Assembly: GCA_029263295.1 (NCBI GenBank)
Contig: JAJCXT010000011.1
Location: forward strand, 1-64,000
Direction of reading: 5' to 3'
Origin: Acidobacteriota bacterium
Lineage (GTDB): Bacteria; Acidobacteriota; UBA890; WLXD01
DNA length: 64,000 nucleotides
The notes beneath the pieces are model-generated. The model had not been told where the DNA came from, did not search any database, and was given only the letters and a program-made list of their open reading frames with translations. Both the position numbers and the translations under genes were made by a program. Shown one piece after another: positions 4,432 to 60,320 of this stretch; the stretch's first letter is position 1; every line of letters starts with the position of its first letter.

Positions 4432-4456
4432 GCCACTGCGGTAGCCCGCCGTCGGG

Positions 4457-38479: not shown

Positions 38480-38962
38480 CTAACTCAGGTTTCTGAGCTC
38501 TTCCTCGATTCGTTGCCGTGCCTCCGCGGACACGGACCCCTCTTGATCTTGAGGGGCGACCACCGCTTCCGCGTCCGGCTCACGCCGCCACTTGCGTAAC
38601 ACTCCAGCGAGGGCCAGAACGCCGAAGCCTATGCCGACCACCGGTAGAAGCCAGAGTACGAGGGTGAACCCACTCGTTCTCGGCTTTGCCAGAACGCGCT
38701 CGCCATACTGTTCAACGAAGTAGTCGGCGATCTCACTCTCGCTCATGCCGGCGGCGATCTGCTCGCGGATCTGCTCACGCCACTCGCTGCACGCCAATGT
38801 TTCGCAGACATCGAGCGGCGTGTTCGGGCAGACCGGGCAGTACAGGTCGCTGGCAATCTCGTTCACCTGATCGTCACTCGGAGCGGATTCCTGACCCAGA
38901 AGCGTCTGGGGTAGAAGGACCAGGATCCCGGCGGCGAGGATCGACAGGGCTCCACGCTTCAT
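38480..38962 (-). CDS. ccmH: Cytochrome c maturation protein CcmH
   Basis: Membrane-anchored thiol-redox protein that keeps apocytochrome CXXCH cysteines reduced for haem ligation. The 160-residue protein has a signal/anchor helix, the conserved domain with LYCPVCPNTPLDVCETLACSEWREQIREQIAAG, and a C-terminal helix FTLVLWLLPVVGIGFGVLALAGVL. The CPVC pair matches the CcmH redox motif, while two further cysteines (DVC and LAC) are unusual. The ATG at 38962 overlaps the ccmF stop (TGATG); a longer upstream frame was rejected. Confidence 0.9.
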   Translation of the reverse strand: MKRGALSILAAGILVLLPQTLLGQESAPSDDQVNEIASDLYCPVCPNTPLDVCETLACSEWREQIREQIAAGMSESEIADYFVEQYGERVLAKPRTSGFTLVLWLLPVVGIGFGVLALAGVLRKWRREPDAEAVVAPQDQEGSVSAEARQRIEEELRNLS

Positions 38963-41040
38963 CACGCCGCCCCTCCGGCGTCCAGCTTCGGACCGGGGGT
39001 TACGGGGTTGAGCACGTAGGAGCGGTGGCTGCGGCCGGCCCGCTGAGGCCACATTGCGACCAGCGTCCCGGCGAGCAGCACGAACGAACCCAACCATGTC
39101 CAAGTGATCATCGGGTTGTAATAGACCTTGAACGTCGATCCGCCCATGCCGATATCCTCCCAACCGATGAGAATCACGTAGACGTCGCCGCCCAGAGTGG
39201 CGTAGGCATCGGGCGCGGTCACCCGCTGTCCGTGCTCAGAGAAGAAGTCCTGGCGAGGCTGTAGCGTCGCCAGCAGTTCGCCGTCGCGCAGCACGCTCGT
39301 GTCCGCCTCGGTGACCTGTCGACCATCCGCTCCTATGTACTGACGCAGCGTGTCGAAGCGCACCGCGTACCCCGCGATCTGCAAGGACTCGCCCTGCGCC
39401 AGGGTGCCCTGAGTCTGCTTCATGAAGAATGCCTCGCCGATGAATCCGAGGCCGATCATGATGACGGCGAGATGGACGAAATAGCCGCCGTAGCGTCGTC
39501 GGTTCAGGCTGACCAGCGTCGTGAAAGCGGCGACCGGATTCTCGCCCTGTGACATCCGCGCGCTGATGCCCTTCCAGAACTCCATTAGCACGGCCAGGGT
39601 GGCGAACACGACGAGCCAAAGGACCGGGTACGCGACCCAGGGGCTCTCGTACGTGTAGCCCCAGAACACAGCTACGACAGCCGATACAAGCACCGGGGCC
39701 ATCAGGCGGTTGCCCAAACGAGCGGCTACCTGCTTGCGCCAGGCGATCATCGGCGCCACGCCCATCAACAGCAACAGCACACCGAAGAGCGGTCCCGCCG
39801 TGGCTTTGAAGTACGGCGGCCCGACGGTGACTTTGTCGCCGGTCACCATCTCCGAAATCAGCGGAAATACGGTGCCGAGAAACACGACGAACGTGATCGC
39901 CAGGAAGACGACGTTCTGCAGCAGGAAGGCGGCCTCGCGCGACAGAAAGCTCTCCATCTCGTGGTCCGACTTCATCAGGTCCAACCGCTTGATCATCAGG
40001 GCCATGGTGCCCAGGAACGTGATGCCGATGAAGATGAAGAAGGCGGGGCCGAGGGCGGTCTTGCCGAACGCGTGGACCGAACTGATCACGCCGCTACGGG
40101 TGATGAAAGTCCCGAACAAGGCCAGCGAGTAGGTGAGAACGATGAGCAGCACGGACCACAGTTTCAGCATCCCGCGGCGCTCGGTGATCATCACCGAGTG
40201 CAGGAACGCCGTGCCGGTCAGCCACGGTAGCAGCATCGCGTTCTCCACCGGGTCCCAGCCCCAGAATCCGCCCCAGCCGAGGACATCGTAGGCCCAGCGG
40301 CCACCGAGCAGCAGCCCGACCGAGAGGAAGCCCCATGCCACCAGCGTCCATCGCCGGCTGGTGCGGATCCACTGATCGTCACGTGCGCGGCCGCTGATCA
40401 GGGCGGACATCGCGAAGGCGTAGGGAACGACGAAGCCCGTGAAGCCCAGGTAGGTTGTCGGCGGATGGAAGATCATGCCGAAATGGCGCAGCAGCGGATT
40501 CAGACCGTTGCCGTCGGGCACGCTGTAGAGCATCGCCCCGGCAGGCGGGAAGAACGCCACGGTCAGCTGGTCGGTGCCGGGCGGCAGCCAGAGTCGGGCG
40601 AACGGGTTGCTGATGAACACCGTGACGCCGATGAAGAAACCCGTGGTTAGGGTCGCTACGGTGATGAAGTAGGGCATCAGGTCCCGGTCCTGTTCCCACT
40701 TGCCGAGCATGACCGCCGCTACGAAACAACTCATCAGCCAGGCCCAGAACAGCAGCGATCCTGCTTGCCCGCCCCATAGCGCCGTGAGGCGGAGGTACGA
40801 CGGCATCGCCAGGTCGGTGTTCTCGGCGATGTAGGCGATCGAGAAGTCCGATTGCTGCAGCGAGTACACAAGAGTGCCCACGGCGACCGTCAGCAGCCCC
40901 GCGATCAGCAACACAGCGCTCCGAGCGCTCTGCACCCACGCCGGCCGCTCGTGATAGCCGCCCCAGGCGGAACTCGCCGTGGCGTAGACCGCCAGGACGA
41001 AGGCAGCGCTCAGAGCTACGAATCCAATCTCAGCGATCAT
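38962..41040 (-). CDS. ccmF: Cytochrome c haem lyase subunit CcmF
   Basis: Large membrane protein that transfers haem to apocytochromes in maturation system I. The 692-residue protein has the tryptophan-rich haem-handling WGGFWGWDPVENAMLLPWL motif, LWGGQAGSLLFWAWL near the N-terminus, conserved histidines in FHPPTTYLGFTGF and FLHSVMITERRGML, and about 14 helices. Upstream ccmABCDE genes are not in the window, so export of haem must be encoded elsewhere. It forms an operon with ccmG and ccmH, needed here because of the neighbouring cytochromes. Confidence 0.96.
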   Translation of the reverse strand: MIAEIGFVALSAAFVLAVYATASSAWGGYHERPAWVQSARSAVLLIAGLLTVAVGTLVYSLQQSDFSIAYIAENTDLAMPSYLRLTALWGGQAGSLLFWAWLMSCFVAAVMLGKWEQDRDLMPYFITVATLTTGFFIGVTVFISNPFARLWLPPGTDQLTVAFFPPAGAMLYSVPDGNGLNPLLRHFGMIFHPPTTYLGFTGFVVPYAFAMSALISGRARDDQWIRTSRRWTLVAWGFLSVGLLLGGRWAYDVLGWGGFWGWDPVENAMLLPWLTGTAFLHSVMITERRGMLKLWSVLLIVLTYSLALFGTFITRSGVISSVHAFGKTALGPAFFIFIGITFLGTMALMIKRLDLMKSDHEMESFLSREAAFLLQNVVFLAITFVVFLGTVFPLISEMVTGDKVTVGPPYFKATAGPLFGVLLLLMGVAPMIAWRKQVAARLGNRLMAPVLVSAVVAVFWGYTYESPWVAYPVLWLVVFATLAVLMEFWKGISARMSQGENPVAAFTTLVSLNRRRYGGYFVHLAVIMIGLGFIGEAFFMKQTQGTLAQGESLQIAGYAVRFDTLRQYIGADGRQVTEADTSVLRDGELLATLQPRQDFFSEHGQRVTAPDAYATLGGDVYVILIGWEDIGMGGSTFKVYYNPMITWTWLGSFVLLAGTLVAMWPQRAGRSHRSYVLNPVTPGPKLDAGGAA

Positions 41041-41587
41041 CGAGTAACTCCAGGATCTTGAACTCCAGCTCTCCTGGCGAGAGGGGGCCGATCTTTACCC
41101 CGCGGAGTTCACCGTTCTTGGCGACATAGAAGGTTTCGGGCACGCCGCGAATGCGGTAGTCGGCGGAGATGCGCGTGCCGAGATCAGGCCCCTGGAAATA
41201 GGTGAGGCCGTATTCTTCGATAAATTTCAGCGCGCCCTTCTCGGTGTCGGCGTAGTCGACGCCAATGAAGACCACGTCGTCACGGTACTTGCGCGACATC
41301 GCTTCGAGTTCGTCCGCCTCGGCGCGGCAGGGGATACACCACGACGCCCAGAAGTTGATGACCACCACCTTTCCACGAAGTTCCTCGAGCGCGAGTGTCT
41401 CGCCGTCGAAGCTGGTGAGGCTGAAGGTGGGAGCCATGCCGGCTTCAGGCTGCGGGGCGTTGGTGTTCTGGAGACCCCACCCGAGCAGGATCAGCAGTCC
41501 CACCATCAGGGCTACCGAGATGCCGGCCACGATATACCGGAGCCGCGGTCGATTCCCGTTTCCCGCCCGCTCGCTGGTCATGAGCAT
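41030..41587 (-). CDS. ccmG: Thiol:disulfide interchange protein CcmG/DsbE (TlpA-like)
   Basis: Periplasmic membrane-anchored thioredoxin that supplies electrons to CcmH or apocytochrome. It has an N-terminal anchor (YIVAGISVALMVGLLILLGWGL), then FSLTSFDGETLALEELRGKVVVINFWASWCIPCRAE with the active WCIPC pair, and the cis-Pro segment RIRGVPETFYV. About 185 residues, typical length. The ATG at 41587 (another at 41581) was preferred to the GTG at 41605. Its 3' end overlaps ccmF by 11 bases. Confidence 0.92.
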   Translation of the reverse strand: MLMTSERAGNGNRPRLRYIVAGISVALMVGLLILLGWGLQNTNAPQPEAGMAPTFSLTSFDGETLALEELRGKVVVINFWASWCIPCRAEADELEAMSRKYRDDVVFIGVDYADTEKGALKFIEEYGLTYFQGPDLGTRISADYRIRGVPETFYVAKNGELRGVKIGPLSPGELEFKILELLDDR

Positions 41588-41756
41588 AGGATAGCAAGAA
41601 AGCACATTCGCGTATCCGGTAGTTCACCGTCGGCGCCGGCTCCGAGCCGCGCAGGCTGTCCAGCGAATACGCTTTCAGCGCTTGACAGATTTTCGCTAGA
41701 GTGGGCGCTTGGCGTCTTCTGAGCGGATCGAAATTCCTGTCAAGACATTTTCTTAC

Positions 41757-41784: not shown

Positions 41785-41842
41785 GATAACACGGTCCTAA
41801 TACAGGCAATTAACGAAGGGCCGAGAGACCAAGGAGGCCTCA

Positions 41843-43024
41843 ATGCTCCAGCAACAGCATGTACGTCTGATCGCCACCGCGGGCATCGCGCTGGCGGTTT
41901 TCTGCGTCGTGTCGTTCATTGCGCCTCCCACGGCGGACGCAGTGCCGGCGTGGGCGCGAAAATACGGTATCCAGTGCGAAGCCTGCCACACGGCGTGGCC
42001 TAGCCTCAACGCCTACGGGCGTGACTTCAAGATCGCCGGGTACAAGATTCCCGACGAGCTGGAAATTCTGGACGAGTACGACGATGTCATCTCGGACTTC
42101 CTGGCGATGGACAAGTCGTTCCCGGTCAGCGCGATCTTCAAGGCGCGACCGTACGACAAGAAGAATGGTAAGCGGGCCCGGATTCGTGCGGGACACGAGT
42201 CCGAGGTCATCATCGGCGGTAGCGTTAACAAGAACTTCTCGGCGTGGGTCGAGTTCGAGGCCGAGGACGAGTTCACGAACTTCAACATCAGACTGGAGCA
42301 GCTGACTGTCGCGTGGAACCCCCAGAAGGAGGCCAACCTCGTGATGGGCTACGGGCCTGTGTTCTGGGCCGATCCGTACGACACGCTGGCCGATGGCGGC
42401 CGCCGTATGACGCGCAATCACAAGGGGCCGTTGAGCGCTAAGGGCGCGGCGGGCCAGCGCCTGCGCGGCAACAGCCAGTGGGTCGGCGCGTTCGGCAAGA
42501 TCTCCGACCGTGTCTTTTACACGGCGGGAGTGAGCGCCGGCAACAATGAACTCGAAGGCGACGACGCGGCCGACTTCTACGGTCGCGTGATGGTCGATGT
42601 AACGCCGGAGATCATGGTCGGCGGCTACATCCTTGACGGTACCAACGACACTGGTGGCGCCATCGAGTGGGACTTCCAGCGGGTTGGCTTCGACGCGCAG
42701 GTGGAGGTGGGTGACTTCAAGGCTTATGGCATGTACATGAGCATCACGGACACCCCCAGCAACGCACCGGTCGACGTCGCGGAGTTCACCCAGAATCTGG
42801 GCTACGTCGAGGCGATGTATGTGTTCCGCCCATCGGGTTTCCCGATGATCGTACCGGTCGCGCGCATCGATTTCCTTGATGACTACACTGACCTCACCGC
42901 GAACGTGAACTTCTACGTCATGCAGAACATCAGGGCCTACGTCGAGTACTGGTCCAACATCAGCGTGCCTAGCGGCAAGGACAAGAACAACCGCTGGGTC
43001 CTGCAGATGGAATTGGCGTTCTAG
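41843..43024 (+). CDS. Cyc2-like fused monohaem cytochrome-porin
   Basis: A 393-residue outer-membrane protein with a signal peptide ending in ADA (about residues 30-33). A short haem region follows, PAWARKYGIQCEACHTAWPSLNAYGR, with a single CEACH at 45-49, then a region with alternating hydrophobic and aromatic residues that ends in MELAF, as expected for a 16-strand-like beta-barrel. The layout (one N-terminal c-haem, then a porin) matches Cyc2-type proteins, which carry electrons across the outer membrane in Fe(II) oxidisers. The DNA-level context of EET genes supports this. Homology to authentic Cyc2 cannot be confirmed without a search; other haem-tagged porins of unknown role have similar openings. 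Confidence 0.7.
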   Translation: MLQQQHVRLIATAGIALAVFCVVSFIAPPTADAVPAWARKYGIQCEACHTAWPSLNAYGRDFKIAGYKIPDELEILDEYDDVISDFLAMDKSFPVSAIFKARPYDKKNGKRARIRAGHESEVIIGGSVNKNFSAWVEFEAEDEFTNFNIRLEQLTVAWNPQKEANLVMGYGPVFWADPYDTLADGGRRMTRNHKGPLSAKGAAGQRLRGNSQWVGAFGKISDRVFYTAGVSAGNNELEGDDAADFYGRVMVDVTPEIMVGGYILDGTNDTGGAIEWDFQRVGFDAQVEVGDFKAYGMYMSITDTPSNAPVDVAEFTQNLGYVEAMYVFRPSGFPMIVPVARIDFLDDYTDLTANVNFYVMQNIRAYVEYWSNISVPSGKDKNNRWVLQMELAF

Positions 43025-43125: not shown

Positions 43126-43830
43126 ATGACCAAACGATCTGGAAAGACGTGGGCCGTTGCGGGCCTGCTGGCTGTGTCTCTTGCGCTGACCATCCTGGCA
43201 GCGCAGACGACCTGGGCGAGCCCCTCTCCCGCGACAGCCGCGTACGGCTCGGTCGGGCAGGAGACTTTCGAGCAGGAGACTTTCGAGTACGTCGGCTCGC
43301 GCAAGTGCAAGAAGTGTCATCTCCCGCAGTTCAAGAGCTGGGAGGACACGCCGATGGCCAACACGATCGATGTGCTCAAGCCCGGCGAGCGTGTGGACGC
43401 CAAGCTCGACGCCGATCTCGACCCCGACGCCGACTACACCGACGATCCGACGTGTCTGGAATGTCACACGGTCGGTTACGGGGAGCCCAGCGGATTCGAG
43501 AGCCTCGATGCCACCCCCGACCTCGCCGGTACCGGCTGCGAGGCCTGTCACGGACCCGGCAGCGCCTACATTGCCGACAACGTCATGGGTAACAAGAACA
43601 AGAAGCACTCCTTCGAGGAGGTCGTTGCCAAGGGGGTCGTGTTCCCCGTGCCCGAGGACACTTGCCGCAAGTGTCACAACGACCGAAGTCCGTTCAATGC
43701 CGCTCTCGATCCCAAGTACGAGTTGGTCTACTCGAAGGAAAAACTGGACGAGCAGACCCACCGGCATTTGAAGCTGAAGTTCGACCACGGACCGATGCCG
43801 GCCGGCACGTTATTCCAGGACTCTCAGTAG
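43126..43830 (+). CDS. Tetrahaem cytochrome c, c554-like (copy 1)
   Basis: A 234-residue exported protein with a signal peptide (AVAGLLAVSLALTILAAQTTWA) and four haem sites: CKKCH, CLECH, CEACH and CRKCH. The pattern YVGSRKCKKCHLPQFKSWEDTPMA and CLECHTVGYGEPSGFES matches the cytochrome c554 domain family. A perfect 12-base direct repeat (gagactttcgag) encodes the doubled ETFE near residue 48. The C-terminus has an extra charged tail. A close relative is encoded at 53614-54156. It probably shuttles electrons in the periplasm; the partner is not known. Confidence 0.85.
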   Translation: MTKRSGKTWAVAGLLAVSLALTILAAQTTWASPSPATAAYGSVGQETFEQETFEYVGSRKCKKCHLPQFKSWEDTPMANTIDVLKPGERVDAKLDADLDPDADYTDDPTCLECHTVGYGEPSGFESLDATPDLAGTGCEACHGPGSAYIADNVMGNKNKKHSFEEVVAKGVVFPVPEDTCRKCHNDRSPFNAALDPKYELVYSKEKLDEQTHRHLKLKFDHGPMPAGTLFQDSQ

Positions 43831-43837
43831 GCGCGCG

Positions 43838-44368
43838 ATGAGCAGGCCTCCCGCCACGCCAACGCCGACGGCCCGAATCGCATTCGTGGTCGCCTTCATC
43901 GTGGTGTTCGTACTCGGCCTGTTCGTCTGGCCGCTGCTGAGCGGGCAAGAAATCGCCCAGCCGCTGGAGTTCAACCATCTCGCCCACGCGGAGTACGACA
44001 TCGAATGCGTCGATTGCCATACCTACGTGTTCACTGGGTTGGACCCGGGGTTGCCTGACAACGCGGTCTGCTTCGACTGCCATGAAGAGGTGATCGGCGA
44101 GAGTCCCGCTGAGCTGCTCCTGATCGAGTGGCTGCAGCGCGAGGAAGAGATTCCGTGGCGGCCGCTGTACCTGCAGCCGGCGCATGTTTTCTTCTCGCAC
44201 CGGCGCCACGCCACTGTTGGCGAACTCGAGTGCTCGGTTTGCCACGGTGATTTCGGCCAGATGGAGCAGCCGCCGACCAGCGCTCCGCGCAAGCTCACGA
44301 TGGACGAGTGTATTGACTGCCACGCTGAAACCGAGGTCGACGATGACTGCACGAGCTGCCATCGCTAA
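43838..44368 (+). CDS. Membrane-anchored pentahaem cytochrome c (Act/Qrc-like)
   Basis: A 176-residue protein with one N-terminal helix (IAFVVAFIVVFVLGLFVWPLL), not cleaved by a clear site, and five haem motifs (CVDCH, CFDCH, CSVCH, CIDCH, CTSCH) with spaced histidines such as FNHLAHAEYDIEC and FFSHRRHATVGELEC, the cytochrome c7/c3 style. It is followed at once by a molybdopterin-family subunit, a ferredoxin and NrfD, the gene order of alternative complex III (ActA) and the Qrc complex. It would connect the membrane complex to soluble cytochromes. Confidence 0.85.
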   Translation: MSRPPATPTPTARIAFVVAFIVVFVLGLFVWPLLSGQEIAQPLEFNHLAHAEYDIECVDCHTYVFTGLDPGLPDNAVCFDCHEEVIGESPAELLLIEWLQREEEIPWRPLYLQPAHVFFSHRRHATVGELECSVCHGDFGQMEQPPTSAPRKLTMDECIDCHAETEVDDDCTSCHR

Positions 44369-44413: not shown

Positions 44414-46738
44414 ATGACCCTATCGAGGCGCTACTTGATCGGGTCGGTCGCCGGGGCGGCCGCTGGCGCGGTGGCGTCGAAGTCGGCGCTGAAGGCTGTT
44501 AGCCAGCTCACCGCGCTGACTAGCATCCCCATTCGTCCGCCCAGGGGACCAGAGGCGTTCCAGACTGGCATCTGCACGGAGTGCGCGTCCGGGTGCGGTA
44601 CACGAGTGCGGACGATTGGTGATCGCGCGGTGTTCGTCGGAGGTAACCCCGAGCACCCACTGAATCGTGGAGGCCTGTGCCCAAGGGGGCTGGCCAGCTT
44701 GCATGCGCATTATCATCCTGACCGGCTCCGGACGGTCCTCGAGCGGGGAGACAATGCGGGCGAACTGACGCCGACGGACTGGGACTCGGCCCTGGGGAGA
44801 CTGTCGACCGAGTTGACCGCGCTGCGCGAATCGGGGCGCCCCGAGCGCCTCGGCGTCCTGCACGAGAAGCGTAACGACCCCTTCGATCGGCTGGTCGGTG
44901 ATTTCCTGCACGCGTTCGGCAGTCCGAATGACCTTGTCTTGAACCCGGTCCCTGTGGAGCTTCGCTCCGCCTGGAGTCGGTCCCATGGACCTGGCGGGGA
45001 CCTCGCATACGACATTGAACGGGCAGGACTGGTGCTCGGCTTCAGCGCTGACTTGCTCGAGGGATTCGGGTCCCCGGGCTACGCCCTGCATGCATTCGGA
45101 CGCCTGCGCGAGCGACCACAGACGAGTCGGGGGCGCTGGGTGCAGATCGAGCCGAGATTGTCTGTCACGGGGTCGCGTGCCGACGAGCGCATTGCTGTGC
45201 GTCCGGGGACGGAAGGTATCTTCGCGCTGGGCCTCGCGTACGTGTTGATCGCCGAACGTCTCTACGATGCCGACTTCGTCACGACACACGTGATCGGCTT
45301 CGAGGATTCCACCGACGACGAGGGGGCCACGCGTCAGGGATTCCGCGAGTGGGTGCTGGAGAACTTCTACGTCAGTCGGGTATCACAGCAAACCGGCGTG
45401 CCCGCGGAGACGATCATGGGTCTGGCGCGGCAATTGCCGCGCTACGCGCCAACGGTAGCGATCCCCGGCCGCGCTGCCGCGCTGAGCGCCAACGGAGAAT
45501 GGACTTGCTGGGCGATCCATACCCTCAACGCATTGCTCGGCTCAATTGGCGTCGAGGGTGGCGTACTCGAGCCGTTGCCGGCTCCCTATGGGAGCGGCGA
45601 CGCGGTCGAGCCCGATTCGATCGCGGCCGCGGGCTTGTCGCGGCCGCGGTTCGACCACGACTTGGCCACCGGCTTGGCCGCCGGGGTTGAGCCGGATCCG
45701 ATAGCAGGAATCTTGAACAGCGACGCTACTGCGCCACCATTTGACGTTCTTGTCGTGGTCGACTGCGATCCCGTCGCCCTCAGTCCGGCGCCCGACCAGA
45801 TGATCGCAGCCCTAGGGCGTATCCCCCTCGTGGTCGTTCTGACCGCGCATGCCAATGAGACCACGGCGTACGCGGATTTGGTCTTGCCGGCCCCCAGTTC
45901 GCTGGAGCGCTGGGACATGGTGGCCAATCCTCCGCTGACGCCATATACGGTCTGCGGCCTCCGGCGTCCCGTCCTCGATAAGCGGGACGACACCAGGCAC
46001 CCGGGAGATGTCCTCATCGGGTTGGCCGGCGGTCTCGGAGACCCGACAGCGGCAGTCGCGCAATGGGACGGCTACGAGGGGTGCTTACGCGCCAGCGTCG
46101 AGGGTCTGTTCGAAGCTCGGCGCGGTGACGTATTCGGGATTGAGCTCGACGCGAGCTACACACGGCTGATGCAGAGCGCCGGATTGTGGACGCCGAGCTA
46201 CCGCACGTCCGGCCAGTTGTGGACGCAGATGCAGGAGCGCGGTGGCTGGTGGGATCCGACGCCCCTCACCGGCGAGCAGCGGAGGATGCTGCAGACGCCG
46301 TCCGGGAAGTTCGACATCGTGCCCCGATACAAGCCCGCAGCGCTGGCGATCGCACTCGACGAGGAGTACCCGTTGCTGCTCTTCCCGTTCGAGGTGCTGG
46401 CGCTGGCGCACGGAAGGTTCAACGACACCCCCTTTATCAGATCGCTGTCAGGACCTCATTTCGACGGACCGATGCAGGCCTGGGTGGAACTGAACCCCGA
46501 GACGGCGGAGGAGTCAGGACTACACGACGGCGAACGGGTGGTCGTTGAATCCGAGTTCGGCGAGGTCGCGGCGAGGCTGCGTGTGTACGAGGGGCTCGAG
46601 CAGGGAATGGCAGCGATGCCGCTGGGAATGGGCCGCACGGCGGGGCGCTGGTCTGGTGGCTGGGGCGTCAACGCACTGGCGCTGGTCGGTACGCCACCCG
46701 GCCAGTATTCGACGCCCGTCCGAGTCCGGAGGGCATGA
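44414..46738 (+). CDS. Molybdopterin oxidoreductase-family catalytic-like subunit (QrcB/ActB1-like)
   Basis: A 774-residue protein with a twin-arginine signal (TLSRRYLIGSVAGAAAGAV), so exported folded by Tat. The N-terminal iron-sulfur motif is CTECASGCGTRVR with the fourth ligand in GLCPRGLAS. Mid-protein Molybdopterin domain segments include LVLGFSADLLEGFG and ADLVLPAPSSLERWD, and the C-terminal Molydop_binding domain includes WVELNPETAEESGLHDGERVVVE. At the usual place of the metal-ligating Ser/Cys/Sec (around residues 175-200) no cysteine is seen, so it may lack active molybdenum like QrcB and ActB. It overlaps the ferredoxin gene by four bases. Confidence 0.85.
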   Translation: MTLSRRYLIGSVAGAAAGAVASKSALKAVSQLTALTSIPIRPPRGPEAFQTGICTECASGCGTRVRTIGDRAVFVGGNPEHPLNRGGLCPRGLASLHAHYHPDRLRTVLERGDNAGELTPTDWDSALGRLSTELTALRESGRPERLGVLHEKRNDPFDRLVGDFLHAFGSPNDLVLNPVPVELRSAWSRSHGPGGDLAYDIERAGLVLGFSADLLEGFGSPGYALHAFGRLRERPQTSRGRWVQIEPRLSVTGSRADERIAVRPGTEGIFALGLAYVLIAERLYDADFVTTHVIGFEDSTDDEGATRQGFREWVLENFYVSRVSQQTGVPAETIMGLARQLPRYAPTVAIPGRAAALSANGEWTCWAIHTLNALLGSIGVEGGVLEPLPAPYGSGDAVEPDSIAAAGLSRPRFDHDLATGLAAGVEPDPIAGILNSDATAPPFDVLVVVDCDPVALSPAPDQMIAALGRIPLVVVLTAHANETTAYADLVLPAPSSLERWDMVANPPLTPYTVCGLRRPVLDKRDDTRHPGDVLIGLAGGLGDPTAAVAQWDGYEGCLRASVEGLFEARRGDVFGIELDASYTRLMQSAGLWTPSYRTSGQLWTQMQERGGWWDPTPLTGEQRRMLQTPSGKFDIVPRYKPAALAIALDEEYPLLLFPFEVLALAHGRFNDTPFIRSLSGPHFDGPMQAWVELNPETAEESGLHDGERVVVESEFGEVAARLRVYEGLEQGMAAMPLGMGRTAGRWSGGWGVNALALVGTPPGQYSTPVRVRRA

Positions 46739-47424
46739 GGATGGCCCGCTGGGGAATGGTAATTGACCTCGACACTTGCACGGGATGTCAGGCCTGCACG
46801 ATCGCGTGTTCGATCGAGAACAACGTCCCGCCTCCGGACCCCGACGGTTCCGACGACCACCGGCCGTTCACGTGGATGCGGCTGCTGCCCTGGATCGGCG
46901 AGGAGTCCCCCGAAGCCGCAGGGCGCATGTTCCCGCGTCCCTGCATGCACTGTGACGATCCCCCGTGCACCAAGGTCTGCCCGGTCGATGCCACCAATAT
47001 CGATCGTGAAGGCATCGTGCGGCAAATCTATCCCCGTTGCATCGGCTGTCGGTACTGCACGACGGCGTGTCCCTACACGGTCCGGTACTTCAACTGGAAA
47101 ACGCCTAGTTGGCCCGAGCCGCTCGAGGAGAGTCTCAACCCGGACGTCTCGATCCGCCCCGCGGGAGTTGTCGAGAAGTGCACCTTCTGCCATCACCGGC
47201 TGCAGCGCGCGCACGATACCGCGGCGGCGGAGGGCCGGGAGTTGCAGGAAGGCGAGTACATGCCCGCCTGCGTCGAGGTGTGCCCGTCGCAGTCGATGTT
47301 TTTCGGTGACCTCGACGACCCCGACAGCGCGGTGTCGCGCCGTTCGCGAACCACGCGAGCGTTCCGCCTGCTCGAAGAGCTCGGCACCAAGCCCAAAGTC
47401 ATCTACCTGCGCAAGGGGGAGTAG
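46735..47424 (+). CDS. Four-cluster ferredoxin-like subunit (PsrB/QrcC type)
   Basis: A 229-residue iron-sulfur protein with cysteine clusters CTGCQACTIAC, CMHCDDPPCTKVCP, CIGCRYCTTACP and CTFCHHR plus CVEVCP, arranged as for up to four [4Fe-4S] centres. It carries electrons between the molybdopterin-family subunit and NrfD or the pentahaem subunit. No signal peptide is present, so it would be co-exported with its Tat partner. It starts with ATG at 46735 (overlapping) or 46741, and is followed within three bases by NrfD. Confidence 0.93.
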   Translation: MRMARWGMVIDLDTCTGCQACTIACSIENNVPPPDPDGSDDHRPFTWMRLLPWIGEESPEAAGRMFPRPCMHCDDPPCTKVCPVDATNIDREGIVRQIYPRCIGCRYCTTACPYTVRYFNWKTPSWPEPLEESLNPDVSIRPAGVVEKCTFCHHRLQRAHDTAAAEGRELQEGEYMPACVEVCPSQSMFFGDLDDPDSAVSRRSRTTRAFRLLEELGTKPKVIYLRKGE

Positions 47425-47427
47425 CCG

Positions 47428-48771
47428 TTGGATCGCAATCTCAGCGCCTTTGCTCCGGATCAGGCTCTCGTGCGGCCGCTGGTCGAGACCAACCGCCGAT
47501 TCTGGATCCTCGTCGGTGTTCTGTGTTCCCTGATGGCCGTGGGCGCGGCGTGCTACCTGATGCAGCTGCGCGACGGCCTGCAGGTTACGGGCATGAACGT
47601 GCCCGTCTACTGGGGCGTGTACATCACGAACTTCGTCTTCTTCATTGGCATCAGTCATGCCGGCACGCTGATCTCGGCTATTTTGCGGATCTGCAAGGCC
47701 GAGTGGCGTCGTTCGATCACGCGAGCGGCGGAGGTGATCACCGTCATGGTGCTGTTCTTTGGCGCCGGCAGCATCATCCTGGACCTGGGCCGACCAGACC
47801 GCGCGCTCAACGTGATTCTGCATTCCAACTTCGAGTCACCACTGTTGTGGGACGTGACGAGCATCAGCGTCTACCTCACCGGATCCATCATCTACCTGTA
47901 CCTGCCGCTGATTCCGGACCTTGCCCTGCTGCGCGACGGACTCGGGAAGCGTCGATGGCTCTATCGCGCGCTGGCGCTGGGATGGACGGGGTCTGCACGG
48001 CAACACAGGCTGCTCGAGCGCGCCATCAGCATCATGGCGATCATCATTCTGCCGATCGCAGTTTCAGTCCACACCGTCGTCTCCTGGGTGTTCGCCATGA
48101 CGGTGCAACCGATGTGGCATAGCGCCATATTCGGGCCCTACTTTGTGGTGGGAGCGATCTTCTCAGGCATCGGCGCCCTCATCGTCTTCATGGCGATTAT
48201 TCGCTGGGCCTACGGCCTGGAGGGCTACTTCAAAGAGATCCAGTTCCGCAATCTCGGCCTGTTGTTGCTAACCATGTCGATGCTGTGGTTCTACTTCACT
48301 CTGAGCGAGTTCATCACTACTTACTACGGTGGCTCGCCGGATCACATGGTGATCTTCTGGGCCAAGCTCACCGGCCCGTACGCGCCGATGTTCTGGACGA
48401 TGGTGGTGGGATGCTTCGTGATCCCTATGACCTTGTTGTCGACTCGCCTGCTGCCCGTCGTCCCTAGCACTGTACTGGCGGGCATCACAGTCAACATCGG
48501 CATGTGGATCGAGCGCTACACGATCGTGGTCCCGAGCCTCGCCCGGCCTCGGTTGCCGCTGGAAACTGGCGTGTACTACCCATCGTTCGTGGAGATAGCG
48601 ATGACGGTCGCATTCTTCGCCGGGTTCTTCCTGTTGTACCTGCTCTTCACGAGGCTCTTTCCAATCGTCGCGATCTGGGAGATCCGCGAGGGACGCGAGG
48701 TTTCGGTCACGGAGGTCAGCGAGCGGGTGGCTTCCTATCTACCCGAGGTGGGGGAGGCGCAGGATGCTTAG
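47428..48771 (+). CDS. NrfD/PsrC-type quinone-interacting membrane subunit
   Basis: A 447-residue integral membrane protein of ten predicted helices. It begins with a TTG at 47428 shortly after the ferredoxin stop. The family segment NFVFFIGISHAGTLISAILR (around residue 70) holds the conserved His and Ser/Thr near the quinone site, and ITRAAEVITVMVLFFGAGSIILDLGRPDR follows. It should oxidise or reduce membrane quinol and may move protons. The 3' end overlaps the tetrahaem cytochrome gene by eight bases, linking this complex to the following bc-type complex. Confidence 0.93.
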   Translation: MDRNLSAFAPDQALVRPLVETNRRFWILVGVLCSLMAVGAACYLMQLRDGLQVTGMNVPVYWGVYITNFVFFIGISHAGTLISAILRICKAEWRRSITRAAEVITVMVLFFGAGSIILDLGRPDRALNVILHSNFESPLLWDVTSISVYLTGSIIYLYLPLIPDLALLRDGLGKRRWLYRALALGWTGSARQHRLLERAISIMAIIILPIAVSVHTVVSWVFAMTVQPMWHSAIFGPYFVVGAIFSGIGALIVFMAIIRWAYGLEGYFKEIQFRNLGLLLLTMSMLWFYFTLSEFITTYYGGSPDHMVIFWAKLTGPYAPMFWTMVVGCFVIPMTLLSTRLLPVVPSTVLAGITVNIGMWIERYTIVVPSLARPRLPLETGVYYPSFVEIAMTVAFFAGFFLLYLLFTRLFPIVAIWEIREGREVSVTEVSERVASYLPEVGEAQDA

Positions 48772-50014
48772 CGTTCGCCGCACCCGGCCTGGGCGGTGCT
48801 CACGACTCGTGCTCCAGGGACTCGGAGCGATGGCGTTGGCTGCTGCTCTCGTGCTATCGGGGCTGCAACCTGTGGCGGCAGCCGCGCCCGTGGGGCAGAG
48901 CGCGGAAGTTGTCTCGGTCTTGCCACGCGACCCCGGCAGGGGCGGGCGCCTGTTCATCTCCAAGGGATGCATCGCGTGCCACTCGATTCATGGGGAGGGC
49001 GGCAACCTCGGCCCGGATCTCGGACGCTCTACCGTTGGTTTGAATCTGCCGGAACTCGCGGCCGCGATGTGGAATCACACGCCATCTATGGGGCGTCAGC
49101 TCGGATTGCTAGGGGTGGAGCGACCGCAATTCGACCGTGGTGAAATGGCCGCACTCACAGCTTTCCTCTACTACCTCAATCTCGTCGACCACGGTGAAGG
49201 CGACGCTGCGCGAGGTAATGATGTCTTCCGTGTCAAAGGCTGCAGCCGATGCCATTCGAGCTCCGGAACTGGAGGCTCGATTGGCCCCGACCTTGACCGC
49301 ATGGAGGGTCATCGCTCGCCGGTCATCGTGGCACAGCGAATGTGGAACCACGGGCCGGTAATGATTGAGCTGTCGGCCGACATTGGAATGGCGGTCCCGG
49401 TGCTCACGCCAGGCGACGTGAAAGATCTCGTCGCGTACCTACGATCCACCAGCTTTGCTGGCTCTCGCGGAACGACCTTCCAGCGGCCCGGCGATGCGCA
49501 GGAAGGCGGAAGGGTATTCGTCGCCAAGGGCTGTTCATCTTGTCACGCTGTCGGCAGTCGCCGCGGGACCGCGCCGGACCTGAGCGAGGCCGACCTGGGC
49601 GTGGGTGTGCTCGACCTCGTATCGAGACTCTGGAACCACATGCCCGCGATGTACGCGCAGATGGAACATTCCGGAATGTCAGCACCGGAACTCACTGAGC
49701 TCGAGATGACCGATTTGCTTGCCTACCTATATTCGCTCGACTACAGCGGTGGTCAGCCGAGCGTCCGTCGCGGTGAGCAGCTGCTGGAGTCAAAAGGTTG
49801 TCGCGACTGTCACGCGATTAGCGGCGGCTCCGGGCAGTCGCCGGAACTCGGTGATTCGCGCGCTACGCGCTCGTTGGAAGAAGGTGTGCGCCTACTGTGG
49901 AATCATGCCCCGGCGATGCTCGCTAACATGCGCGAGGTGGGCGCTGCCTGGCCGCGGTTGGATGGCGACGAGATCCGGGACATCATGGGTTACCTGCGTA
50001 GCTTGCCGGAGTAG
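48764..50014 (+). CDS. Tetrahaem cytochrome made of four tandem class I cytochrome c domains
   Basis: A 416-residue exported protein with a signal peptide and four mono-haem domains in a row: CIACH (residue 69), CSRCH (160), CSSCH (257) and CRDCH (346), about 90-97 residues apart. Each domain ends with a repeated WNHxPxM motif (residues 103, 194, 290, 379), whose methionine is the likely sixth haem ligand, followed by the helix L..YL. So it arose by internal duplication. It occupies the place where a bc complex keeps cytochrome c1. Stop is about 110 bases before the Rieske gene. Confidence 0.88.
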   Translation: MLSVRRTRPGRCSRLVLQGLGAMALAAALVLSGLQPVAAAAPVGQSAEVVSVLPRDPGRGGRLFISKGCIACHSIHGEGGNLGPDLGRSTVGLNLPELAAAMWNHTPSMGRQLGLLGVERPQFDRGEMAALTAFLYYLNLVDHGEGDAARGNDVFRVKGCSRCHSSSGTGGSIGPDLDRMEGHRSPVIVAQRMWNHGPVMIELSADIGMAVPVLTPGDVKDLVAYLRSTSFAGSRGTTFQRPGDAQEGGRVFVAKGCSSCHAVGSRRGTAPDLSEADLGVGVLDLVSRLWNHMPAMYAQMEHSGMSAPELTELEMTDLLAYLYSLDYSGGQPSVRRGEQLLESKGCRDCHAISGGSGQSPELGDSRATRSLEEGVRLLWNHAPAMLANMREVGAAWPRLDGDEIRDIMGYLRSLPE

Positions 50015-50125: not shown

Positions 50126-50572
50126 ATGGTTCGTCGGCGCTTCATCAACTGGCTCCTGGGTACCTCGGGCGGCGCATTGTTCGCTGCCGTCTTCTATCCG
50201 GTACTGAGTTTCGTAGTGCCGCCTGACGTTCCCGAAGCGACCACTAACCAGGTGGAGGCCGGCCCTACGAACGATCCGGAGTTGCTTGATCGCGGTTTCA
50301 AGATCGTCCGTTTCGGCGCCGAGCCGGTGCTGCTGGTGCGAGTGGCTGATGGCGATTACCGGGCCTTCGCAGGCGTGTGCACGCACCTCGATTGTATCGT
50401 CGAGTATCAGAGTGAGAACAAGAGGATCTGGTGCAACTGCCACAACGGCGAGTACGACCTTCAGGGTCGGCAGGTAGCGGGCCCTCCGCCCCATCCGCTA
50501 GAGCAGTTCAAGGTCGACACGGTGAGCCGTGGCCGCGGGCAGGCGGCGATGATCGTGGTCTCGAGGGTGTAG
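50126..50572 (+). CDS. Rieske iron-sulfur protein
   Basis: A 148-residue membrane-anchored [2Fe-2S] protein. An N-terminal helix (FINWLLGTSGGALFAAVFYPVLSF) is preceded by VRRRF, a possible twin-arginine-like start. The cluster-binding motifs are CTHLDC and CNCHNGEYD, with the latter differing from the common CPCHGS. Two Cys and two His ligands are all present. The final segment is short. It ends one base before the cytochrome b start and belongs to that complex. Confidence 0.92.
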   Translation: MVRRRFINWLLGTSGGALFAAVFYPVLSFVVPPDVPEATTNQVEAGPTNDPELLDRGFKIVRFGAEPVLLVRVADGDYRAFAGVCTHLDCIVEYQSENKRIWCNCHNGEYDLQGRQVAGPPPHPLEQFKVDTVSRGRGQAAMIVVSRV

Positions 50573-51739
50573 ATGAGCAGCCCCGTCGACGCCGTCCGCG
50601 ATTGGTTGCAGGCGCGGCTCCCCTTGGCAGAGACGCAGGAGTTCGCGTCGCACAAGACCGTGCCGGTGCACCGCTTCATGGCCATCTACTACCTGGGTGG
50701 GATGACGTTGTTCTTCTTCATCGTCCAGGTGATCACCGGCATCCTGCTGATGCTCTACTACCGCCCGTCGGCCAATGAGGCGTTCGAGTCGGTCGAGTTC
50801 ATCATGACCACGGTGCCCTTCGGCTGGTTGATCCGTTCACTGCACTCTTGGTCGGCGAACCTCATGGTCTACTTCGCCTTCGTGCACCTGGTGACGGTCT
50901 ATTTCACCCGTTCCTATCGAAAACCGCGCGAGATCACCTGGATCACAGGCTGCGCGCTGCTCTTCGTGGCCATGGCATTCGGCTTCTCGGGCTATCTGCT
51001 GCCCTGGAACCAACTCGCCTTCTTCGCCACGCGCGTGGGGACAGATAGTGCCGGTGCAATCCCGATCGTTGGCGAGTGGACGTTGCGCTTCCTGCGCGGC
51101 GGCGATCGTGTCTCGGGTGGCACGCTGTCGCGCTTCTATGGCTGGCACGTGGCCATCCTGCCGCTCATTACCACGGCGCTGCTCGCCGGCCATCTGCTCC
51201 TGGTACAGCTGCAGGGGATGAGCACGCCCGAGTCGGAGCGCAAGACTGCGGCAGCGCGGCGGCCGATGCAGTTCTTCCCGAACTTCGCTCTGCGCGATCT
51301 GTTCGGCTGGGTCTTGGCGCTGGCGGTGCTTGCCGGCGCGGCGGCGCTGTTCCCGTGGGAACTCGGCGAGAAGGCGGATCCGTTTTCACCCGCCTTCGCC
51401 GACATCCGTCCCGAGTGGTACTTCATGTTCATGTTCGAGACCCTCAAGCTGGTCCCGGGCGGCGAGATCTTCGGCATTGAGTACGAGGCCATTCCTATCC
51501 TCGGCTTTTCGGTGCTCGGACTGTTGCTGGTTCTTGTGCCATTCCTCGATCCCGAGCCGACGACGCCGGGGAGAAGGCGCTTCTTCAACGGCCTCGGCAT
51601 CGTCGGGCTCGTCTACGCGGTTGGCATGACAGCCTACGGCTATCGTTCGATGACCTCGGTGTGGATCGTGCTCGGCACGGCATTGCTGATCGTCGCGCTC
51701 GGCCTCGCGACCCGTCGCATGCCGAGGAGCCGCCCGTGA
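50573..51739 (+). CDS. Cytochrome b of a bc-type complex (fused N- and C-halves)
   Basis: A 388-residue membrane protein for quinol oxidation with two b haems. Helix B has [20 protein letters not shown], with 13 residues between the two haem histidines. Helix D has [21 protein letters not shown] with 14 residues between them, the spacing seen in cytochrome b6. The C-terminal half has the Qo motif [10 protein letters not shown]. In b6f the two halves are separate proteins, so this is a b6-like N-half fused to the C-half. The stop overlaps the next cytochrome start (GTGA). Confidence 0.93.
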
Positions 51740-53523
51740 AGCGAACAACGATGTTTACCGGAGTTACTTTCGTGGGGATGGCGACTTTCGCGATGGCGCT
51801 GAGCGCCCAGCCGCAGGAGGCGACGGAGGCCGAAGCCCAGGGCGAGGTGGCGTCGCCGGATACGTCGTGCATCGCCTGCCACAGCGACGCCGATCTGTTC
51901 GACGAGGATTTCCTGCACATTGTCACCGACTTCGGCGAAGACATTCACGTGGCGGCTGGGATTTCCTGCCACGACTGCCATGGCGGCAACCCCGATCCGG
52001 CGCTGTTCGAGGACTACGTCGAGGCCAAGGACGAGGAGTTCGCGGACAATCCCTACCGCGGTATTCCCGACGCGATCGATCAGCCCGCGATGTGCGGGGG
52101 CTGCCACTCGGACGCGGCGTACATGCGCCGATTCGCTCCGGCCGAAAGAGTCGATCAAGAGGCCGAATACTGGACAAGCCGGCACGGCATTGCGCTTGCC
52201 GCCGGCGACGAGGACGTTGCGCGTTGCTCGAGTTGCCACGGCGTGCACGGGATTCGTTCCCCCGACGACCCGGACTCGCCGGTTTACCCGACGCAAGTGG
52301 CGGCAACCTGCCAGGAGTGCCACGGCGACGAACAGCGTATGGCCGGGTATCAGCTCGCGGACGGAAGGCCCTTGCCGACCGACCAGTATGAGCGTTGGCG
52401 GAGCAGCGTCCACGGGAGCGCCCTCAACGTGCGTCAGGACATCAGCGCGCCCACGTGCAACGACTGCCACGGTAACCACGGGGCTGCCCCGCCTGGCGGT
52501 GATTCGGTTAGTTATGTCTGCGGACAGTGTCACGGTCGCGAAGCGGAGTTGTTCCGAAACAGCCCGAAGTTCGAGGGTTTCGAGGAACACTCCGAGTTCC
52601 TCCTCGATGCCGGCGAGGAAGGCTGCGCAGCGTGCCATGATGATGAGGAGCCGCAGTCGCAGCTCACCGACACGCACGGGTTCTCGGAATGCGCCACGTG
52701 TCACGGCAACCACGATGTGATGCGACCGACGGTGGCCATGCTGTCTCCCTTGCCGGGGACGCCCTGTGCCCTGTGTCACGAGGGCGCCGGCGCGGTCGTT
52801 GGCGAGGTGCACGAAGTGGGTGAGCGCGAAGCTCATTACGAGGAGACCCGGGACGGATTGCTCGCTGGTGCGACCGATCTCGGCCTTCAGGGTGACGCAC
52901 GTTTCGACTGGTTCGTCGACCGCGCTATGGAGCTGGAGCACCACACGGTCCCAACCGCCGACGATGGAGTGGCGGCACGGCCGGAGTTCGCGCGGCTCTT
53001 CGAGAAGTTTCGCATCGGCAAGACGTCGTACACAGTGACGGATCCAGACACAGGCGAGACGCAGACCCACCAGATTATCCGCTGCAACAGCTGCCACGCA
53101 TCGGAGCGGATTCTCGGTGAAGGCTACGCGGTAGGGCGCGAAGTGGCGGGCGCCATGTTGGATCGCATGCGCGAGCTGACAACAGGGGTGGCACGCGCCG
53201 AACGATCGCTGCTGGCAGCGCGACGCGGTGGGGTCGAGACACGACTGGCACAGGAAGCCATCGATCAGGCAGTTGACGCGCGGATCTCGCTCGACGCGTT
53301 GGTCCATGGTTTCGAGGTCGATGGTGACTTCGCGACTCGTCATGCCGAAGGGATGGAACACGCGGGGGCGGCGCTGCTGGCGGGGCAGCAAGCGCTCGAA
53401 GAACTCGACTCACGCCACCGGGGACTGTACTGGGCGCTGCTGGTGATCGCCCTCTTCCTGCTCGCTCTGGGGCTCAAGATTCGGGATCTCTCAGCGCACG
53501 CGGAGCGAGGGCGAAATGGATAG
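51736..53523 (+). CDS. Undecahaem cytochrome c with C-terminal membrane anchor
   Basis: From the GTG at 51736 (overlapping the cytochrome b stop) a 595-residue protein with signal peptide and eleven CXXCH motifs: CIACH, CHDCH, CGGCH, CSSCH, CQECH, CNDCH, CGQCH, CAACH, CATCH, CALCH and CNSCH. The last is separated from the others by about 120 residues. After the haem region come helical segments ([24 protein letters not shown] and further coiled coil) and a final membrane helix ([20 protein letters not shown]). It is probably the electron exit of the Rieske/cytochrome b complex. Confidence 0.85.
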
Positions 53524-53613: not shown

Positions 53614-54156
53614 ATGAGACGAGCCATGGTGGGCGCGGCTGTGATGATCCTGATGGCGAGTGTCGCCGTCGTGGTCGCCGGAACCAGTAGTGGCGCGGCG
53701 GCTGAATCGGCAGCGACATTGACGGCAGTGCACTCATTCCAGGACCTCACTTTCGCCGGTCACAAGGACGGCTGTCGCAAGTGCCACCTGAAAGAACACC
53801 GCTCCTGGTCGAGGACGCCGCATGCCAAGGCGCTCGACAAGCTCGAAGGCGATGACGCCAACAACCCCGAATGCCTCGAGTGCCACACGACCGGTTATGG
53901 AGAGCCCAGCGGGTTCACCTCTGCCGACGATACGCCGGAGCTCGCCGGCGTGACCTGCGAGGCCTGCCACGGTGCTGGTAGCGCGTACCGCGACAAGGAA
54001 ACGATGAAGGACCACGACGCGTCGGTTGCCGCCGGCTTGCAGATGCCGAACGAGACCACGTGTCTGGGGTGTCACAACGATCGCAGTCCGAATTTCGCGG
54101 GCGCGTTCGACTACGAAGCCATGAAGGAAGAGGGCGTCCACGACATAAAGCAGTAG
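53614..54156 (+). CDS. Tetrahaem cytochrome c, c554-like (copy 2)
   Basis: A 180-residue secreted protein with signal peptide and four haem sites (CRKCH, CLECH, CEACH, CLGCH). It is a clear paralogue of the protein at 43126-43830: CLECHTTGYGEPSGF, TCEACHGAGSAY and CHNDRSP are shared, while the doubled ETFE segment and the C-terminal tail of copy 1 are missing. A likely periplasmic electron shuttle. The gap 53524-53613 before it contains no obvious promoter beyond a purine-rich ribosome-binding region. Confidence 0.85.
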   Translation: MRRAMVGAAVMILMASVAVVVAGTSSGAAAESAATLTAVHSFQDLTFAGHKDGCRKCHLKEHRSWSRTPHAKALDKLEGDDANNPECLECHTTGYGEPSGFTSADDTPELAGVTCEACHGAGSAYRDKETMKDHDASVAAGLQMPNETTCLGCHNDRSPNFAGAFDYEAMKEEGVHDIKQ

Positions 54157-55748: not shown

Positions 55749-56492
55749 GTGGGCTTGTCGAACTTGAGTCTTCGCGCGTTGGGGCTCGCAGTATTGTCAG
55801 GGGGCGCGGCCATGTTGTTTCTCTCCATGGCGACCGCCGTCCCGGCCCAGGAACAGGAACCCATTGAGTACGTCGGCGACGATCTGTGCGCCGAATGTCA
55901 CGTCGAACAGGCCGGTAAGCTCCAGGGCACCGTGCACGCCGACATGCTCGAGTTTCTTGCCGATGAGCCGGCGGGGATCGGGAGTTGCGAAGCGTGTCAT
56001 GGCCCCGGCATGCTGCACGCGGAAATGGCCGGCAGCGAAGATCCGGGCTTCCGAGATGCGTTCGTGACCACGCCCGATCCCGACGGTTGCGTGGGCTGTC
56101 ACCTGGAGGTGCGGGGACAGTTCTCTCTGCCCGAGCGGCATGCCGTATTGCAGGGCTTCATGGAGTGTTCGGATTGCCATGACCCGCACGGGTCGTTCAA
56201 CGGGGGCCTGCGAGTAGAGGCTCAGAACGCCACGTGTACGCAGTGCCACACCGACAAGGAAGGCCCTTGGGTGTTCCCGCATGCATCGCGGGAGGTCGAA
56301 GGATGCACGGTTTGCCACCAGCCGCATGGCTCGGTGAACCCGCACATGCTGCCGTTCCGAGAAGTGGCGCTCACATGTCTGAGCTGTCACCCGGGACAGC
56401 CGCCATTTCATAACCAGCCTGAGTTCGCGGAGTGCCTTTCATGCCATGTGCAGATTCATGGCTCCAATCTGGACAAGCACTTCCTGCAGTGA
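55749..56492 (+). CDS. MtrA/DmsE-like octahaem cytochrome c
   Basis: A 247-residue secreted protein starting at GTG 55749 (AAGGAGAAA upstream). Eight haem motifs occur (CAECH, CEACH, CVGCH, CSDCH, CTQCH, CTVCH, CLSCH, CLSCH) in the alternating style CSDCHDPHGSFNGGL and CTVCHQPHGSVNPHM typical of the MtrA/PioA/DmsE family. That family usually has ten haems, so this member is shorter. The protein probably threads into the outer-membrane barrel encoded next, forming an electron conduit. No lipoprotein signal is seen. Confidence 0.88.
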   Translation: MGLSNLSLRALGLAVLSGGAAMLFLSMATAVPAQEQEPIEYVGDDLCAECHVEQAGKLQGTVHADMLEFLADEPAGIGSCEACHGPGMLHAEMAGSEDPGFRDAFVTTPDPDGCVGCHLEVRGQFSLPERHAVLQGFMECSDCHDPHGSFNGGLRVEAQNATCTQCHTDKEGPWVFPHASREVEGCTVCHQPHGSVNPHMLPFREVALTCLSCHPGQPPFHNQPEFAECLSCHVQIHGSNLDKHFLQ

Positions 56493-56503
56493 GGAGAGAG
56501 ACG

Positions 56504-58582: not shown

Positions 58583-58596
58583 CTAGGGGATTTTTG

Positions 58597-60250: not shown

Positions 60251-60320
60251 CTTCAATTATGACACGCAGATGACATCTCATCGCGCGCCAGGATTCACCA
60301 CTAGTACCAGGGGGTATCCG

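Follow-up and report, generated by a model that had tools for sequence, protein, structure and literature searches.

We examined a 64,000-nucleotide stretch of an Acidobacteriota genome (assembly GCA_029263295.1, contig JAJCXT010000011.1; hereafter the window) and found an electron-transfer island led by a porin that carries a single haem motif, which we call the haem-porin. With moderate confidence, we interpret this protein as a divergent Cyc2-like outer-membrane barrel whose own N-terminal domain, with one haem c, would plug the periplasmic mouth, making it a one-haem electron relay. At the level of sequence, the analysis establishes a signal peptide, a single CXXCH, a plug homologous to that of Cyc2-type proteins and a barrel homologous to those of related haem-porins; the coding gene is conserved, and it lies in an island where genes for quinone-linked complexes and cytochromes run in the same direction. 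The haem-porin probably lets electrons across the outer membrane, and there is a fair probability that it functions in the manner of Cyc2.

The haem-porin gene encodes a signal peptide, a haem plug and a predicted barrel

The haem-porin open reading frame starts with an ATG at 41843, closes with a stop codon ending at 43024 and encodes 393 amino acids on the plus strand (Table 1). The protein begins with MLQQQHVRLIATAGIALAVFCVVSFIAPPTADA and continues past the putative cleavage site with VPAWARKYGIQCEACHTAWPSLNAYGRDFKIAGYK. The protein has the motif AVPAWARKYGIQCEACHTAWPSLNAYGRDFKIAGYK and a single CXXCH (C45-H49), whose first residue is also the first cysteine of the protein, and the C-terminus is ...RWVLQMELAF, with Phe as the final residue. 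The original prediction of a signal peptide and of a CXXCH at residue 45 after PAWARKYG was accurate: inspection and the family alignment both point to a Sec-type signal with an AXA-like site, and the haem motif lies exactly at that position, with PSL following it. The same prediction had a beta-barrel running to a terminal Phe. The Phe is present, and the barrel is suggested by homology and by a crude alternation count. At one and the same threshold, this home-made count gave 15 strands for the haem-porin and its close relatives (the window clade), against 17 for the Cyc2 references; values ranged from 10 to 19 as the threshold was varied, and a barrel of 14-16 strands in the window clade would fit them. 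An AlphaFold2 model built from two sequences only had a pLDDT of 28. Across the family, we found no conserved His or Met other than in the CXXCH, that is, no conserved distal haem ligand.

Searches with the haem-porin gave no match among Pfam, NCBIfam and PDB sequences, and no homologues were found in viral contigs. Its nearest relative is an 89% identical copy in a MAG of the same genus (OFTM137, here G002; loci L021/L051). The two copies differ by 34, 22 and 135 substitutions at the three codon positions, with 121 synonymous against 44 non-synonymous codons, which indicates purifying selection and, therefore, a real gene.

Table 1. Features of the haem-porin gene and of its surroundings in the window
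Feature	Coordinates	Strand	Basis
CcmF/NrfE-like haem lyase and ResA/DsbE-like thioredoxin, divergent from the island	38962..41605	-	TIGR00353 9.1e-122; ResA 8.3e-25
Shine-Dalgarno AAGGAGG of the haem-porin	41831..41837	+	Read from sequence; ends 5 bases before ATG
Haem-porin gene, 393 aa, Cyc2-like, FARKY branch	41843..43024	+	ORF, homologues, profile comparison, tree, purifying selection
Putative Sec-type signal peptide, residues 1-33 (...TADA/VPAW), hydrophobic	41843..41941	+	Sequence pattern by inspection; AXA-like site kept across the family alignment
Haem plug motif, residues 33-67, AVPAWARKYGIQCEACHTAWPSLNAYGRDFKIAGY	41939..42043	+	Most conserved block of the family; common to Cyc2-type proteins
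CEACH, single haem c attachment site, residues 45-49	41975..41989	+	Sequence; invariant across all aligned homologues
Predicted outer-membrane beta-barrel, about residues 90-393, terminal Phe	42110..43021	+	Homology with the barrels of FARKY haem-porins (100%, E 8.6e-42); crude alternation count ~15 strands
Tetrahaem cytochrome c554-like, first gene downstream of the haem-porin, candidate periplasmic partner	43126..43830	+	PF13435 2.2e-22; 4 CXXCH
QrcA-like multihaem cytochrome c, 5 CXXCH	43838..44368	+	NF041781 1.5e-36, below cut-off
QrcB-like molybdopterin-oxidoreductase-fold subunit	44414..46738	+	NF041783 8.2e-76, below cut-off
QrcC-like iron-sulfur subunit	46735..47424	+	NF041782 4.4e-90, below cut-off
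NrfD/QrcD-like quinone-interacting membrane subunit	47428..48771	+	PF03916 1.3e-35
Four-domain cytochrome c, 4 CXXCH	48764..50014	+	PF00034 2.7e-30
Rieske iron-sulfur protein	50126..50572	+	PF00355 9.3e-14
Cytochrome b, 388 aa, a fusion of b and petD-like parts	50573..51739	+	PF00033 8.1e-51; PF00032 2.9e-7
Cytochrome with 11 CXXCH; its real start probably lies after 51661	51661..53523	+	CXXCH count
Second tetrahaem c554-like cytochrome	53614..54156	+	PF13435 1.5e-18
NapC/NirT-type membrane cytochrome, 6 CXXCH and 1 longer CX3-4CH motif	54218..55732	+	PF03264 3.5e-9
DmsE/MtrA-like 8-haem cytochrome, porin-cytochrome conduit type	55749..56492	+	TIGR03508 7.9e-44, 150 bits vs cut-off 192
Putative beta-barrel, 716 aa, adjoining the MtrA-like cytochrome	56432..58582	+	Weak NF041027 (GSU2204 family) 2e-6; adjacency
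Octahaem cytochrome, possible outer-face partner	58594..60147	+	8 CXXCH
Octahaem cytochrome, plan resembling that of the 58594..60147 protein	60270..61910	+	8 CXXCH

The haem-porin leads an accessory electron-transfer island

The island spans 41843-61910, has all its genes on the plus strand and encodes at least eight multihaem or multi-domain c-type cytochromes. From the c554-like gene to that of the four-haem cytochrome, spacings do not exceed 46 bp, so that one operon is likely. The cytochrome maturation genes beside the island may possibly be dedicated to its products. The NapC/NirT-type cytochrome is, we presume, ImcH-like in outline. The haem-porin had been predicted to lead an island that also has an Mtr-like system; the island was recovered, and its Mtr part proved to be a DmsE/MtrA-like eight-haem cytochrome scoring below the family cut-off, next to a putative barrel, and not a strict MtrAB.

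In G002, the nearest relative, the genes from the haem-porin to the NapC-like one stand in the same order, at 74-95% identity. The haem-porin is absent from another genome of the genus (G001, 95% complete), whose best match to the last octahaem protein of the island is weak. The island is therefore regarded as accessory.

Several observations concern the island's other genes. When window positions 55749-60147 are compared with positions 3925-7264 of locus L153, from a same-genus relative, the flanks are kept (NapC-like, 85%; last octahaem, 80%); between them, identity falls to 29% in the MtrA-like gene, and neither the barrel gene nor the first octahaem gene was detected. The conduit cassette between the NapC-like and last octahaem genes seems to have been exchanged in this relative. 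Sets of Rieske, cytochrome b and 11-haem genes like those of the window are found at L127/L154 (G010) and L155 (G376), with cytochrome b matching at 71% and 59%, in genomes that also carry haem-porins, not adjoining these sets. Several NrfD homologues have a single in-frame TGA, four of them in family f17 (G036, G048, G071 and G023) and one in G288.

The haem plug recurs across Acidobacteriota

Matches to the haem-porin query at E ≤ 1e-6 were found in 102 of 396 Acidobacteriota genomes, mostly over the N-terminal plug, and the plug pattern [FWY]A[RK]xx...CxxCHxxxPxLNxxGxxFxxxGY was found again in related proteins. The haem motif is therefore not a chance match. The residues P-x-[FW]-A-R...G..CxxCH...P.L...GR.FK..GY are common to Cyc2 types and the haem-porin. 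The window clade, with mostly full-length matches of at least 31% identity, is present in eight of the 396 genomes (G000, G002, G238, G310, G018, G010, G034 and G372), and G012 and G284 match it more weakly. A shorter haem-porin subtype of ~390 aa forms one clade (L061, L063, L071, L082, L084, L086, L088, L090, L099 and L102); its loci mostly have a 4-5 haem cytochrome of ~460 aa close by, without Rieske or cytochrome b genes nearby.

A plug in common with Cyc2 and a barrel of a separate branch

Cyc2 has been defined by a signal peptide, a single CXXCH near the N-terminus with AXPXFAR[Q/K][T/Y] upstream and PXL four residues after it, a length of at least 365 aa and a 16-strand porin domain (PMC8406198). 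Placement in the Cyc2 tree or detection by the FeGenie Cyc2 HMMs, a haem in the outer membrane and Fe(II) oxidation are further marks of Cyc2. The haem-porin has the signal peptide, the single N-terminal CXXCH, the PXL (CEACHTAWPSL) and, at 393 aa, the length. At the upstream motif it reads AVPAWARKY, with a Trp (F37W) that also occurs in its 89% identical relative, and one of the eight window-clade members (L055) follows the motif strictly. Because F37W breaks the published motif, we do not file the haem-porin as Cyc2.

We compared the family with Cyc2-type references from plasmids of Caballeronia, Methylocystis, Ideonella, Acidithiobacillus ferrooxidans, Paraburkholderia and Polymorphobacter, a set assigned by motif and context, not by the published HMMs, and not including Cluster 1 and Cluster 3 sequences. 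These references have FARQTG-type or similar plugs, and most adjoin a c-type cytochrome gene. With hhalign, the close family matched them at 98.5% (E 2e-15, 346 columns), a match resting mainly on the ~40-residue haem plug, while a reversed-sequence control gave 0.3%. A barrel-only profile matched FARKY porins (450-550 aa) at 100% (E 8.6e-42) and the Cyc2 references weakly, at 35% (E 4e-4); it gave 0.2% against the unrelated 716-aa barrel of the island (the ORF at 56432) and about 0 against reversed sequences. From these comparisons, the haem-porin has its plug in common with Cyc2, and its barrel is that of the separate FARKY branch.

In a tree of 69 proteins, the window clade lies on one side of a branch with 100% support. 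It falls outside the Cyc2 clade, which unites six plasmid Cyc2-type and four Acidobacteriota proteins (support 100%, branch length 1.79), and the order among the large groups is weakly supported (56%). The original prediction of a Cyc2-like protein thus stands as regards architecture and haem plug. An identity with Cyc2 does not follow, given F37W, the weak barrel match and the separate clade.

Cyc2 proteins from three clusters have been characterised and all three oxidise Fe(II), with a potential of +208 mV for Cyc2PV-1 (PMC8406198). In a model of iron-oxidising bacteria, Cyc2 is linked to Cyc1 and ACIII, and ACIII and Qrc form one clade (PMC4643136). The haem-porin resembles the Cyc2 of Acidithiobacillus ferrooxidans and Mariprofundus ferrooxydans PV-1 (PMC8406198) in its signal, its single CXXCH, its homologous plug with P-x-[F/W]-A-R and PxL, its predicted C-terminal barrel and its length of ~400 aa, and its gene occurs beside those of quinone-linked complexes, much as Cyc2 is linked to ACIII in the model (PMC4643136). 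Unlike Cyc2, it has Trp at position 37, K-Y instead of Q-T, a barrel of the other branch and a clade of its own, and in place of a Cyc1-type partner gene it is followed by genes for a tetrahaem c554-like cytochrome and for the Qrc-like subunits.

Haem-porins of different types occupy the same operon slot

Of the 8-20 kb neighbourhoods of 55 haem-porins, we surveyed most against the island proteins and a reference operon. Rieske and cytochrome b genes lie near 18 of the 42 non-K400 loci, usually ~4 kb downstream on the same strand, and near none of the 13 loci of the shorter K400 subtype (Fisher p 0.005, the subtype having been picked after seeing the data). The full operon order is haem-porin, cupredoxin with a CarboxypepD-like tail, NAD(P)H-type oxidoreductase, Rieske, cytochrome b, petD-like and octahaem tandem cytochrome c. 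This operon is conserved in other Acidobacteriota (L074, L103, L109, L091, L093 and L096), where the partners are 62-83% identical and the porins ~25%. Two such operons (L103 and L109) hold a Cyc2-clade porin and others a FARKY porin; L074 (FARKY) and L103 (Cyc2 clade), for instance, share partners that are 69-83% identical and porins that are 25% identical. In trees built for the octahaem cytochrome and for cytochrome b, the porin types are interleaved, with L103 grouping with L074, and L109 beside L093/L096. The simplest reading of these operon trees is that porins were replaced in place, and FARKY and Cyc2-clade porins would therefore be equivalent in function. This exchange is the strongest evidence on function, and it is indirect. 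For the wider family, a Cyc2-like mode of action is well supported, because the architecture and plug are those of Cyc2 and sister haem-porins sit in the same operon slot.

The haem-porin is like the FARKY-type haem-porins of Acidobacteriota (L074, L091, L058 and others) in barrel homology (100%), plug and single haem. It differs from them in that the window clade is a separate branch with 100% support, without the cupredoxin/NAD(P)H-oxidoreductase operon. Qrc-like modules join haem-porins in L054, L091, and L097 with L124. Among 40 Qrc-like loci examined in other genomes, one has a haem-porin within ~10 kb; we therefore consider the pairing occasional and reject the idea that the Qrc module is always accompanied by a haem-porin. 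Within the window clade, L054 (G018) has a cytochrome c-cupredoxin-CarboxypepD-like fusion (10847-11815) directly after the haem-porin, together with a Qrc-like module, and its genome has RuBisCO. Two other members, L056 and L057, have no cytochrome neighbours save one weak match.

Two other known systems were compared. Like MtrAB, PioAB and MtoAB, the haem-porin would be an outer-membrane electron conduit, and the same island holds the DmsE/MtrA-like gene and putative barrel 13 kb downstream. It differs in that its one haem is fused to the porin, where those systems use a separate multihaem protein, and in that its barrel is of ~300 residues, not of about 26 strands, and has no profile similarity to the 716-aa barrel of the island. 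We therefore rejected an MtrAB-type complex as its identity. ExtI, a porin of the Geobacter ext cluster, likewise has genes for Rieske, cytochrome b and multihaem cytochromes alongside its own (PMC5877670). ExtI has no haem motif, whereas the haem-porin has one and no NCBIfam match, and this identity was also rejected.

Proposed electron path and alternatives

In our preferred explanation, the haem would be covalently attached in or under the barrel and would exchange single electrons with a soluble donor entering the pore, with Fe(II) as the best guess. Electrons would then pass to a periplasmic cytochrome, for which the first candidate is the tetrahaem c554-like protein encoded directly downstream, and onward through the Qrc-like and Rieske/cytochrome b complexes to the haem-copper oxidase of the genome, in which COX1 is present. 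Electron entry, not exit, is an assumption here, and Fe(II) would be the likely donor. Entry is favoured by Fe(II) oxidation by Cyc2, the Cyc2-ACIII model, COX1, the RuBisCO of G018 and a link to a tunnel habitat. OFTM137 carries the name series of MAGs from Oslofjord tunnel biofilms, and from its name we infer that it belongs to that series. Fe and Mn oxidation has been reported for these biofilms, the source of the other OFTM-prefix MAGs; the tunnel study of Fe/Mn-oxidising biofilms found Cyc2 in 51 of 401 MAGs and named no Acidobacteriota among those. We count against the preferred explanation the low pLDDT and the lack of a conserved His or Met besides the CXXCH, the fact that the porin-swap evidence comes from sister branches while the window clade has different neighbours, the occasional nature of the Qrc link and the neighbourhoods of L056 and L057.

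Two further points weigh on the direction of flow: no match to RuBisCO was found in the window genome (78% complete), and the NapC-like and porin-cytochrome genes of the island are typical of electron export. The same haem-porin could belong to a reductive extracellular electron transfer island, in which electrons from quinol would pass the Rieske/cytochrome b complex, the NapC-like protein and cytochromes of the periplasm on their way out to a soluble extracellular acceptor. We judge this rather unlikely. In its favour are a NapC/NirT-type quinol-oxidising cytochrome alongside a DmsE/MtrA-like conduit and octahaem cytochromes, and haem-porin matches in about a quarter of Acidobacteriota genomes, far above known iron oxidisers. 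However, Fe(II) is oxidised by each of the three characterised Cyc2s (PMC8406198), the porin of the sister operon is accompanied by a cupredoxin, in the manner of rusticyanin in iron oxidisers, and the habitat inferred for OFTM137 is an Fe/Mn-oxidising one.

The remaining alternatives concern the identity of the protein. We consider it improbable that it is a true Cyc2 iron oxidase which has merely diverged at the motif, as a member of the little-characterised Cluster 3 might have. The architecture, a length above 365 aa, the PXL motif and the profile match (E 2e-15) agree with a true Cyc2, and the published consensus allows K/Y, as FARKY proteins have; but the motif is broken by F37W and strictly kept in L055 alone of the eight clade members, the barrel is weakly related to Cyc2-type barrels, and the protein falls outside a Cyc2-type clade drawn from plasmid references and Acidobacteriota sequences. 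It is very improbable that the protein is a solute porin with a haem for sensing, gating or structure and no electron conduit. Although the family has no conserved distal ligand that we could find, and L056 and L057 are without evident redox partners, the CXXCH and plug are invariant, operons of the sister branches link haem-porins to quinone-linked complexes (18/42 non-K400 against 0/13 K400 loci), and FARKY haem-porins swap with Cyc2-clade porins.

Discussion

We tentatively propose that haem-porins may constitute an exchangeable electron-port module, with at least two deeply separated types, Cyc2 and FARKY, swapping in the same Acidobacteriota operons and the window clade forming a third type, wired to a Qrc-like and Rieske/cytochrome b pair and to a parallel multihaem conduit. 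L074 and L103, with the same operon and different porins, offer a directly testable pair for the contribution of the porin. Cyc2 serves as a marker gene for iron oxidation, and the published motif and HMMs decide which organisms count. Since a branch that fails the motif has sisters replacing Cyc2-clade porins in the same operons, this marker probably undercounts organisms that can exchange electrons through a one-haem pore. If our proposal is true, a previously unrecognised quinone-linked pathway of extracellular oxidation would be widespread in Acidobacteriota.
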